A stretch of DNA of 64,000 nucleotides, from positions 1 through 64,000 of the forward strand of contig JAHHIH010000012.1 of the NCBI GenBank assembly GCA_019358835.1. Reading direction: 5' to 3'. The stretch is from Tildeniella torsiva UHER 1998/13D. GTDB taxonomy: Bacteria > Cyanobacteriota > Cyanobacteriia > Phormidesmidales > Phormidesmidaceae. The translations under genes and the position numbers were made by a program. The notes under the pieces were generated by a model that was not told the origin of the DNA, did not search any database, and saw only the letters and a list, made by a program, of their open reading frames with translations. Of the stretch, positions 22,797-53,367 are shown piece after piece (position 1 is the first letter of the stretch; each line of letters begins with the position of its first letter).

Positions 22797-24053
22797 TTAG
22801 AACAGTGCGGCGACGTCGCCAATTGGCAGAGGATGACCCAGCAGATACCCCTGCGCGGTGTTGACGCCCAGTAGTTTCAGCGCCGTGAGTTCTGAGACAG
22901 TTTCTACCCCTTCGGCCACGAGGCTGCTGCCCGTCTCTTGGGCAAACCCCACTAGGGCCGCCGTGAGTGCCCGACGGGTAAGGTCGGTATCAATGTCGCG
23001 AATTAGGCTGATGTCGAGCTTAATAATTTCTGGCTTGAGTCTAAGAATATGCAGAAAACTCGCATAGCCCGCCCCGGCATCGTCAACGGCTAGGCGGATG
23101 CCGCGATCGCGCAGGGGGGCAAGGCATTGGCCAAATTGCGAATAGTCGGGGATGGCCACGTGCTCGGTTACTTCTAGCACAATGCGATGGAGGGGCACCT
23201 CCTGAAGGGCGCTAGCGATCGCACCACTGAGAATATTTTGGGGCGAGACGTTGATGGATAGGTAAAGATCGTCGGGAATGTCGCTAAGGCTAGCCAGGGC
23301 CTTGGCGATCGCCGCCATCTCCAGCTCTTCGCTGAGGCCCACCTCCGCCGCTTCGCTAAACCACACATCAGGGCTGCGAATGGGCCTAGACCAAAATCGG
23401 GTCAGCGCCTCAACGCCGACGATCTTGTTGTCGATGAGGTGCACAATCGGCTGGTAGACGCTGGTAAACGCTTCAGACTCAAGCACTGAGGAGATGCGCC
23501 AGCGCATCTCTTGGCGGCGACGCTCGGCGGTTAGCTCACGACCCAGCTGTCGAGACGTAAAGTCGGCAAACACGTGCATGATGGCCAGGTCGCGATCGCC
23601 CAGGGTAAAGTCGGGTTGAGTGCTAAAACAGCAGAAGGTGCCATAGAGCTGTCCATCCCCCAGCCGAATAGGCACGCTGAGATGGGCCCCCACGGGCAGG
23701 GCGAGCGTGGCTGGTAACTCTAGAGCCGCCGGAATCAACGAGGCGTCGTGAATGAGCTCGGGCAGTCGGCCATCCACCACGCGCTGGCAGTAGCTCTGTT
23801 CGAGCGGATCTGAGTCACCCACGGCGATGGGCGCATTCTCTAAGGCCGAATCCACATAGCGAAATCGGCGTCTGCCGCCTGAGAACTCAGCGATAAACGC
23901 CACCTCCATATCGAGGTAGAGGCGAATGGCACACAGCGCGTCTAACACGACCTCATCAATTGCCTCCTCCCCAGAACTAGCCGCCGACAAAAAGACATAG
24001 GGAATTAGCGCCAGCTTACTCGCTACCGGGTCTGGAATCAGTTGTCCGTCCAT
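22797..24053 (-). CDS. GAF-EAL c-di-GMP phosphodiesterase-like protein
   Basis: 418 residues. A GAF domain (about 25-170) lacks the Cys-His pair of bilin-binding forms. The EAL domain starts near 185, with EAL at 215-217, asparagine in INVSPQN, DDAGAGYASF in place of the usual DDFGTGYSS, KLD, and AEGVET. The metal and substrate ligands thus appear to be kept, so it is probably an active phosphodiesterase, although the Asp-Asp-Ala-Gly variant may tune activity. No GGDEF domain is present. It is a single minus-strand gene. Confidence 0.87.
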   Translation of the reverse strand: MDGQLIPDPVASKLALIPYVFLSAASSGEEAIDEVVLDALCAIRLYLDMEVAFIAEFSGGRRRFRYVDSALENAPIAVGDSDPLEQSYCQRVVDGRLPELIHDASLIPAALELPATLALPVGAHLSVPIRLGDGQLYGTFCCFSTQPDFTLGDRDLAIMHVFADFTSRQLGRELTAERRRQEMRWRISSVLESEAFTSVYQPIVHLIDNKIVGVEALTRFWSRPIRSPDVWFSEAAEVGLSEELEMAAIAKALASLSDIPDDLYLSINVSPQNILSGAIASALQEVPLHRIVLEVTEHVAIPDYSQFGQCLAPLRDRGIRLAVDDAGAGYASFLHILRLKPEIIKLDISLIRDIDTDLTRRALTAALVGFAQETGSSLVAEGVETVSELTALKLLGVNTAQGYLLGHPLPIGDVAALF

Positions 24054-51141: not shown

Positions 51142-53367
51142 ATGGCAATGTCTACTTCTAAAACATGTGCTTGTCATACTATTGGTCGATGTCCGGTTGG
51201 ACAGGCCGGTAGGCTTTTTCTCTGGTTTCCAGTACCCCACACCCTTGCAAAAGTCATTCCTTTTCTGAAAAAGGAGTCGTTAGAGTTTGAACTTATGCAG
51301 GAACGACCAGGGTTGAGTTTAGCCTGCAAATCTGGCCAAGCCCAAGACATTGCCCGTAACTTAGGTCAACTTGTAGCGCCGAGAGAGTTAAAAGAAACCC
51401 AAGTTTTGTTTGTTCGAGGTGTCGTTCAGCCGCAATTACAAGATTTTAGCGACATGGCCTCACTTCAGCAGTTTATCAAGTTCAGCCAGGCTGATTGGCT
51501 GATAGATATGTTGGCAGCCAATCGCTTTACCAGCCATTTTCAGCCGATTGTTTCGATTCAAGACACCTCTGAAATTTATGGGTATGAATCTCTTTTTCGA
51601 GGGCTAGACGAGCAGGGTAACGTCGTCATGCCCGGCCCCATCTTTGAACTGGCAACGGAAGCTGGATTGCTGCCGCAGCTGGATCGGGCGGCACGCCTGA
51701 GCACAATTGCCCAGGCCCGTCAGCATGACTTGACAGGACGTATTTTCATCAATTTTTCCCCCACCGCTCTGTACGATCCGGTGTCTTGTCTGCGGAGCAC
51801 CGTAGATGCCATTGATAAAGCCGGAATTCGTCATGAGCAGGTTGTATTTGAAGTAGTAGAGTCAGATAACCCTCAGGATTTGGTCCACCTTAGAACCGTG
51901 CTGAGATATTATCGAGATGCCGGTTTTGGGGTGGCTCTGGATGATTTAGGGTCTGGCTATTCTGGCCTAAACTTACTGCATCAGCTGCGACCCGATTTCA
52001 TTAAATTGGATATGGAGCTGGTTCGCGATGTTCATCAGGATCTCTACAAAGCTTCCATCACTGAAAAACTTTTAGAAATTGCTCAGAAGCTCAACATTCA
52101 AACGGTTGCGGAAGGCATTGAATGCGTTGAAGAGCTGAACTGGCTTCAGGAGCGGGGTGCAAACTTTGCCCAAGGCTATTTGATTGCGAAACCGGGTGCG
52201 GTGCCGATTAAGACGACTCCCCATTTTGACCCCACGCCAGTGATTCGAGAGGAGGGTCGAGAGGCTGTGACGTTGAGGCAGCCCTCGGTGCAGCATCAAA
52301 GCGAGTCTGAGCGCATTGTGGCGGCAGTCACCCAGCGCATTCGGCAGTCGCTGGATCTAACCGAAATTCTTCAGACTACCGCCGATGAAGTGCGGCAGCT
52401 GTTTGAGGTAGACCGAGTGGTGATTTATCGCTTTGAACCCGATTGGAGCGGGCTGGTGGCGGTGGAGTCTCTAGCGGCAGGGAGTCCATCTATTTTGGGC
52501 TTCCACGTGATGGATACCTGCTTTCAGACGACCCACGCAGCTTTCTACCAAGAGGGCAACACCAGAGCCATTGAAAATATTGAAACCGCCGGGCTGCAAC
52601 CCTGCCATGTAGAACTGCTGCAGAGCTTAAAAATTCGAGCCAATTTGATCGTGCCCATTTTGCAAAAGGAGCGGTTGTGGGGACTTTTAATTGCGCACCA
52701 GTGCACCCATCCCCGGCGGTGGCAGCAGTCTGAGGTAAATTTGTTTTACCAGCTGGCCAGTCAGGCTGCGATCGCCATTCAGCAGTCGGAGCTTTACCAC
52801 CAGCTGCAAACCGCCAACCAAGAGCTACAGCGCCTGGCTTCGGTGGATGGGTTGACCCAGGTGGCCAATCGCCGCTGTTTTGACGACCGGCTCAATGCCG
52901 AGTGGCAGCGGCTGGCCCGAGAGCAAGCCCCCCTATCGCTGATTTTGTGCGATGTAGACTGCTTCAAACTTTACAACGATACCTACGGCCACCTGGGGGG
53001 CGATGATGCGCTGCGGCAGGTGGCTAGTGCTATTGCTCAAACCGCTAAACGCCCGTCCGATTTGGTGGCCCGCTACGGGGGCGAAGAGTTTGCGGTTATT
53101 TTGCCAAATACCACTGCCGAGGGGGCGATCGCTACTGTCAAAGCCATTCAGGCTAATTTGGCGGCATTACAACTGCCCCACCCCCAATCTCAGTCCAGCG
53201 ACCTGATGACACTGAGCTTTGGCGTCGCAACGGTCGTGCCCCAGGGCCAGTTGTCTTCGGCAACGTTGATCGCCACCGCTGATCAAGGCCTTTACCAAGC
53301 AAAAGCCCGAGGAAAAAACTGTGCGGTGCAGATGAGCTACGGAGAAATAGCGGCGTCATCTCGATGA
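51142..53367 (+). CDS. EAL-cyanobacteriochrome GAF-GGDEF light-sensing c-di-GMP protein
   Basis: 741 residues. Order: an N-terminal Cys-containing segment (CACHTIGRC), EAL domain (about 120-350; the EAL position reads ESL at 149-151, LDDLGSGYSG and AEGIE kept), GAF (about 395-550) and GGDEF (about 565-735; GGEEF 646-650, with an RPSD inhibitory site five residues before it). The GAF has the DXCF motif DTCF (C460) and the Cys-His pair at C488-H489, 28 residues apart. This is the hallmark of DXCF cyanobacteriochromes, which bind a bilin and respond to blue/green light. It should be a light-controlled c-di-GMP switch. Confidence 0.9.
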   Translation: MAMSTSKTCACHTIGRCPVGQAGRLFLWFPVPHTLAKVIPFLKKESLEFELMQERPGLSLACKSGQAQDIARNLGQLVAPRELKETQVLFVRGVVQPQLQDFSDMASLQQFIKFSQADWLIDMLAANRFTSHFQPIVSIQDTSEIYGYESLFRGLDEQGNVVMPGPIFELATEAGLLPQLDRAARLSTIAQARQHDLTGRIFINFSPTALYDPVSCLRSTVDAIDKAGIRHEQVVFEVVESDNPQDLVHLRTVLRYYRDAGFGVALDDLGSGYSGLNLLHQLRPDFIKLDMELVRDVHQDLYKASITEKLLEIAQKLNIQTVAEGIECVEELNWLQERGANFAQGYLIAKPGAVPIKTTPHFDPTPVIREEGREAVTLRQPSVQHQSESERIVAAVTQRIRQSLDLTEILQTTADEVRQLFEVDRVVIYRFEPDWSGLVAVESLAAGSPSILGFHVMDTCFQTTHAAFYQEGNTRAIENIETAGLQPCHVELLQSLKIRANLIVPILQKERLWGLLIAHQCTHPRRWQQSEVNLFYQLASQAAIAIQQSELYHQLQTANQELQRLASVDGLTQVANRRCFDDRLNAEWQRLAREQAPLSLILCDVDCFKLYNDTYGHLGGDDALRQVASAIAQTAKRPSDLVARYGGEEFAVILPNTTAEGAIATVKAIQANLAALQLPHPQSQSSDLMTLSFGVATVVPQGQLSSATLIATADQGLYQAKARGKNCAVQMSYGEIAASSR

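Follow-up and report, generated by a model that had tools for sequence, protein, structure and literature searches.

Light-controlled enzymes of c-di-GMP metabolism built on cyanobacteriochrome (CBCR) GAF domains are known from several proteins, and the accessible parts of the literature describe SesA and Cph2 as CBCR-GGDEF proteins that make c-di-GMP in blue light (PMC5812497, PMC8846402, PMC5871770), and SesC as a two-way protein, in which the diguanylate cyclase (DGC) goes up in blue and the phosphodiesterase (PDE) goes up in green light (PMC8846402, PMC5871770, PMC9090330). Additionally, the C-terminal part of Cph2 from Synechocystis PCC 6803 is reported as EAL-CBCR-GGDEF, which is a precedent for an order with the EAL domain first (PMC5812497), and a literature search that covered mostly titles and abstracts and few subscription papers returned this architecture for Cph2 only. 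The GAF domains of typical DXCF proteins are stated to isomerise phycocyanobilin (PCB) to phycoviolobilin and to be blue/green photoreceptors (PMC11284453). For the phytochrome cyclases, the sensor-cyclase connector lengths are reported to follow a multiples-of-seven pattern in 54% and a -4 pattern in 38%, and a cyclase that is off register to be barely light-activated (PMC9587094).

The gene analysed here (51142..53367; this and all features below on the forward strand unless stated) lies in a window, the whole stretch of DNA under study, of 64,000 nucleotides, and encodes from an ATG start a 741-aa protein composed of an N-terminal domain (N-domain, NTD), an EAL, a CBCR GAF and a GGDEF domain. 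The order given in the initial annotation, EAL before the GAF and GGDEF after it, was borne out by the Pfam domain positions, which place the EAL phosphodiesterase domain at residues 120-351 (51499..52194; PF00563, 4.7e-56), the GAF at residues 405-546 (52354..52779; PF01590, 5.1e-24) and the GGDEF diguanylate cyclase domain at residues 569-727 (52846..53322; PF00990 over 566-726, 2.3e-50). A variable EAL-GAF connector (residues 352-386, 52195..52299) and a helical GAF-GGDEF connector (residues 547-568, 52780..52845) join these domains. The Pfam scan of the 741-aa protein found no PHY domain, one GAF stretch and no family upstream of residue 120, and the score against RimA (NCBIfam NF052265) was 186.2 bits, below the curated cut-off of 430.

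An alignment of residues 1-360 was used to scan the genome contigs of GTDB for relatives, and the best 80 of the 218 found were kept; 50 of these best 80 loci carry NTD-EAL-GAF-GGDEF in a single frame, with Nostoc, Nodosilinea and Leptolyngbya accounting for many of them. These 50 scan loci, the window and five further genomes make up the conservation set of 56 fused proteins (mean pairwise identity 0.78, with a few near-copies), which includes L084 with its N-terminus missing, and in which the pairs L085/L028 and L081/L025 are identical over the tree region, so that 56 rows do not equal 56 independent cases. In an even draw of the phylum the N-domain occurs in 14 of 194 genomes, six times in frames of 743-761 aa, and within the genus of the window it occurs in 12 of 23 genomes, 10 times in frames of 739-761 aa. 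With residues 121-741 as the query, at least 11 of 386 genomes give a match that spans the EAL to the GGDEF, in one case interrupted by an internal TGA, and a further genome gives a partial match, these counts being lower bounds with three candidates scored per genome at E 1e-120.

No conserved operon partner was found within flanks of up to 6 kb at the 56 loci: the commonest neighbour cluster is present at 14 of them, and the window's own neighbours at no more than nine, the window included. Given this weak conservation, no pathway was inferred from the context. The 5.8-Mb source genome (G000) gives 91 matches to the domains of the protein, a rich c-di-GMP/GAF repertoire. It includes a 1152-aa protein (L131:1356-4811, contig C44) with PAS-like sequence in front, recognized by eye, followed by a DXCF-type GAF (DTCF ... 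PCY), then GAF, GGDEF and EAL, so that one cell holds both placements of the EAL. On contig C24, a protein of CBS repeats, GAF and GGDEF that lacks both bilin cysteines (L032:3810-5867), a build that we take to be also that of SesA, adjoins a PAS/GAF-GGDEF gene whose last GAF keeps the CH cysteine only (L032:12-3743). Within the window itself, the reverse strand encodes a 418-aa EAL protein (22797-24053) with GAF-like sequence ahead of the EAL, again by eye.

The GAF sequence supports a DXCF-type cyanobacteriochrome domain, namely a CBCR-type GAF without PHY and with both bilin cysteines. The initial annotation had pointed to a DTCF motif and a Cys-His pair 28 residues apart, and both were found as stated: D458-T459-C460-F461 (52513..52524) contains the second cysteine, C460, and the canonical bilin cysteine C488 with H489 (52603..52608) follows at this spacing. 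When the domain was searched with phmmer against the PDB, DTCF fell on DPCF and CH on CH of PDB 3vv4, presumably TePixJ, gap-free and at 4.7e-33, and thus both cysteines match the bilin positions. Across the fused architecture, D458, F461 and C488 are present in 56/56, C460 in 55/56 and H489 in 54/56; the D-x-C-F...C-H motif as a whole is found in 53/56, with a spacing of 28 every time, and the remaining three are each altered in one residue. These are L064, from the Nostoc cyanobiont of a Peltigera, which has DTGF for DTCF in an otherwise intact-looking fused protein and so is a natural second-Cys variant, and L078 and L083, in which Tyr replaces H489; they suggest that some members may do without the complete photochemistry. 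In the source genome, one gene matches the bilin reductase family and two match the heme oxygenase family, which makes a bilin supply likely.

By analogy with typical DXCF domains, blue/green would be the outcome for the bilin type and colour of this GAF. An alternative, a serious possibility even though we lean against it, is that the GAF binds a bilin but is not blue/green, either since PCB is kept, giving a blue/orange pair, or since the cysteine adduct is irreversible. One source lists the DXCF protein NpF4973 as carrying PCB, at 435/600 nm (PMC4469895), and the nearest solved bilin-GAF, 6oap (1.8e-51), which is closer than 3vv4, has a Tyr at the second-Cys position; however, D458, C460 and F461 are all kept in the protein of the window, and the typical members of its class make phycoviolobilin.

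Both output domains keep their catalytic residues, which supports the prediction that they are of the active type. Scored on lists of catalytic, metal-binding and substrate residues for EAL and GGDEF that we take to be the accepted ones, 13 of the 16 EAL positions are invariant in the 56 proteins, with E308 in 55, Y273 in 55 and S150 in 49, and all 13 catalytic or metal positions scored in the window EAL are as expected. The EAL motif does read ESL, as previously remarked (E149-S150-L151, 51586..51594; E and L in 56/56), and ExLxR is intact, with R153. A degenerate EAL, considered on account of this motif, was ruled out, because Ser is the family norm (49/56) and ExLxR is intact; judged from the alignment, ESL in place of EAL is predicted to carry no functional weight. 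In the cyclase, the GGEEF active-site motif (53077..53091) is invariant (56/56), and the RxxD inhibitory-site motif, here RPSD (53050..53061), has R637 in 24/56 and D640 in 50/56, so that product inhibition probably varies.

The best reading of two trees is that an older stand-alone N-domain-EAL protein was fused once to a CBCR-GGDEF half and that this half was then lost about five times. In the NTD-EAL tree of 83 rows, whose 56 fused rows differ from the conservation set in that L084 is out and L128 is in, the fused rows fall into a single group together with seven that lack GAF-GGDEF (support 100/100), and the older stand-alone proteins fall outside it under a midpoint root, with Gemmatimonadota on the far side. 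L084, L102, L104, L106, L107, L113 and L115, which are broken or truncated, have a different build or lack an N-domain match, were left out of this tree, as was L034. The distribution of GAF-GGDEF on it needs six changes, five of which are forced by well-supported branches, and in the second tree the 13 fused GAF-GGDEF halves form one clade (100/99), which fits one fusion. The EAL of the window is 59-64% identical to those of 12 stand-alone NTD-EAL proteins of the Microcoleaceae/Oscillatoriaceae type, and the outgroup NTD-EAL proteins in the tree lack both GAF and GGDEF in their reading frame.

The nested short proteins show what remains after such a loss: six of the seven keep all 13 scored EAL residues, and the remaining one, L103, breaks off within the EAL. 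At L043, a 21-residue GAF remnant (81% identity) lies about 50 bases past the stop, which shows loss, not ancestry, at that locus; at L132, from the same genus and on a 5.46 Mb contig, no GAF remnant was found within the 19.9 kb examined, and L074 stops 313 bases short of its contig end. The EAL dN/dS among the short L043, L074 and L127 is about 0.07-0.10, close to the 0.06 of the fused pair of the window and L036; with high dS values, these ratios are rough. For the short L071, a near-copy of the fused L070, it is about 0.5, which points to weaker constraint, so that strong constraint is shown for some of the short copies and not for all. No donor of the GAF-GGDEF half emerged: the CBS-GAF-GGDEF protein of the same genome is without both cysteines, and the deep forks of the GAF-GGDEF tree lack resolution. 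In Rubrobacter marinus, a GGDEF lies ahead of N-domain-EAL in one frame (L107:3985-7071), and so the NTD-EAL unit was combined with a GGDEF on at least one further occasion, at its opposite end.

On the evidence of the connectors, the photosensor is tied more closely to the GGDEF than to the EAL. The connector between GAF and GGDEF is 22 aa long in 56/56 and has a modal identity of 0.93, whereas the EAL-GAF connector has 28-36 aa, 33 aa being the length in 42/56, and a modal identity of 0.65. The stretch from W513 to D569 is 57 residues long in all 13 fused rows used, and among 17 distinct relatives, drawn from the own genome, the best GAF-GGDEF matches and the Cph2-like proteins, it is 57 in 12, 50 in three and 71 in two, namely differences of 0, -7 and +14, a count whose weight is lowered by the shared ancestry of the relatives. 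It was made on 35 aligned rows, 13 of them fused, with the duplicates L032/L002 and L139/L148 merged; L134 and L135 were excluded because their GAF aligned poorly (48 residues), and L131 because a GGDEF does not come directly after its GAF (56 residues). These steps of seven support a coiled-coil relay from GAF to GGDEF, for which the EAL side offers nothing comparable, although the multiples-of-seven pattern is not strict even in the phytochrome cyclases (PMC9587094). A full-length structure prediction with six orthologs had a mean pLDDT of 41.8, and its geometry speaks neither for nor against an EAL-GAF contact.

The connector evidence and the intact EAL after loss of GAF-GGDEF argue that light most likely gates the cyclase, and we propose, with moderate confidence, that the protein is a two-enzyme regulator in which the EAL acts as an eraser, either constitutively or under regulation of its own. 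First, the DXCF GAF would bind a phycocyanobilin-derived bilin through C488, and C460, as in the family, would form a second, reversible bond, leading to a dark state that absorbs blue light. Upon illumination, the GAF would change, and the change would pass through the heptad-phased helical connector to the GGDEF, which would become active, most likely under blue light by analogy with SesA and Cph2. The EAL, of the older stand-alone type with its own N-domain, may meanwhile remove c-di-GMP independently, so that light would decide whether net c-di-GMP is made against this eraser background. Against an independent eraser it counts that a variable connector is compatible with allostery, and that three quarters of the fused proteins (those 42 of 56) do share one EAL-GAF length; the loose multiples-of-seven pattern, the altered bilin residues of L064, L078 and L083 and the weaker constraint on L071 also weigh against the proposal.

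The initial annotation had gone further in suggesting that light may choose between making and destroying c-di-GMP; a sensor fused to EAL and GGDEF domains with kept catalytic residues stands, but the choice between them does not follow, as the GAF-GGDEF connector is fixed, the EAL-GAF connector varies and the EAL outlives the light half. A switch like that of SesC, in which one GAF drives the GGDEF in one colour and the EAL in the other, has a described model in SesC itself and would agree with the intact look of both enzymes. We nevertheless consider it unlikely here, in view of the variable EAL-GAF connector, the intact motifs and purifying selection that the EAL shows after GAF-GGDEF loss, and the outgroup proteins that have neither GAF nor GGDEF in frame.

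Residues 1-118 hold a further conserved domain that the initial annotation had overlooked. Residues 1-128 of the window protein match no Pfam family, and among the 53 members scanned the N-domain gave stray matches alone, at E 0.059 or worse. AlphaFold2, run with 53 sequences, predicted a confident beta-alpha-beta-beta-alpha-beta domain at about residues 19-96 (51196..51429), with the 10-residue blocks of 21-90 at pLDDT 88-93 and the first 14 residues below 50. This ferredoxin-like domain has no Pfam name, and the fold search gave nothing more specific than a widespread ferredoxin-like arrangement, from which no function can be read: the best Foldseek E was 1.5e-2, and at the best VIA-align Z of 7.6 there was a tie between mitoribosomal, PII-like and designed proteins. 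BLUF was neither among the Pfam matches nor in the 50 fold matches listed, a distant kinship being beyond the reach of the fold comparison. The N-terminal tail in front of the domain carries a C-x-C-x5-C motif (C9, C11 and C17; 51166..51192), and in the fused proteins C9, C11 and C62 are each kept in 55/56 and C17 in 53/56. At the tail site, the stand-alone relatives of the Microcoleaceae type and of Chloroflexota have CxxC, and those of Gemmatimonadota have no Cys; the C9/C11/C17/C62 set marks the fusion clade, and all four are kept in six of the seven members without the light half. A two-input device, in which the N-domain would sense redox or a metal through these cysteines and set the EAL, and light on the GAF would set the GGDEF, is a speculative reading that we hold to be quite improbable; if true, c-di-GMP would report light colour against the redox state of the cell.

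For the comparison with Cph2, L134, L135, L136, L137 and L139 were gathered via the PHY family, and L142 and L144 were added as strong GAF-GGDEF matches whose domains follow one another in the same way; L138 was set aside for want of an EAL match and L140 because it has a single GAF match. Domain assignment relied on BLAST with the domains of the window protein as queries. L136 (1242 aa) and L137 (1246 aa) are the most Cph2-like, in L139, L142 and L144 (1596-1603 aa) the EAL and the last GAF lie some 400 residues apart, and in L134 and L135 the last GAF is degenerate. The last GAF and the GGDEF are 47-57% identical to the window's in five of these proteins, versus 28% for the last GAF and 37-39% for the GGDEF of L134/L135. 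In all seven, the EAL shares no more than 26-28% identity with that of the window protein, and therefore the EAL-CBCR-GGDEF order probably arose separately, assembled twice from what appear to be different EAL lineages. Descent from Cph2, by shortening after loss of its GAF-PHY-GGDEF part, is very improbable: it could draw on the common order (PMC5812497), on the DPCF and CH of L137 that are also 28 apart and on the connector length that L136 and L137 share with the window, but the EAL is far closer to the 12 stand-alone proteins (59-64%) than to the Cph2-like ones, the latter have no N-domain match at E 1e-3, and the fused GAF-GGDEF clade (100/99) holds no Cph2-like row, the deeper forks of that tree lacking resolution.

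If one fusion was indeed followed by repeated loss of the light half, the family would represent a natural domain-deletion experiment and a comparative series on how opposed enzymes are coupled, a general question for GGDEF-EAL proteins. Similarly, a heptad-phased connector would be a link between cyclases of the cyanobacteriochrome and the phytochrome type, and could help in designing c-di-GMP tools that work with blue light.

Compared with the described systems, the protein shares with SesA a CBCR GAF joined to a GGDEF, reported there as a blue-light cyclase (PMC5812497), and differs from it in carrying an EAL. With the PadC-type phytochrome cyclases it shares sensor-GGDEF connector lengths that are often multiples of seven apart (PMC9587094); however, the PadC sensor is described as a PAS-GAF-PHY unit with biliverdin (PMC8846402), and no EAL leads it. 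The stand-alone NTD-EAL proteins of Microcoleaceae, Chloroflexota and Gemmatimonadota share the N-domain and the EAL, but have no GAF-GGDEF in frame and have their N-terminal cysteines as CxxC or not at all. With Cph2 it has in common the EAL-CBCR-GGDEF order, the CBCR before the GGDEF being blue/green in Cph2 as far as that source describes it (PMC5812497); Cph2 has in addition an N-terminal unknotted GAF-PHY-GGDEF, whereas the window protein is without a PHY module and has the ferredoxin-like N-domain as an extra. Among the systems as described in the accessible sources, SesC of Thermosynechococcus is the nearest in function, a CBCR, a cyclase and a phosphodiesterase being combined in one protein, with two-way control reported for SesC and the likeness drawn from its description. 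The type is known in outline, but this version seems to have an origin of its own and, on the best reading of the trees, has shed its light-sensing half repeatedly.
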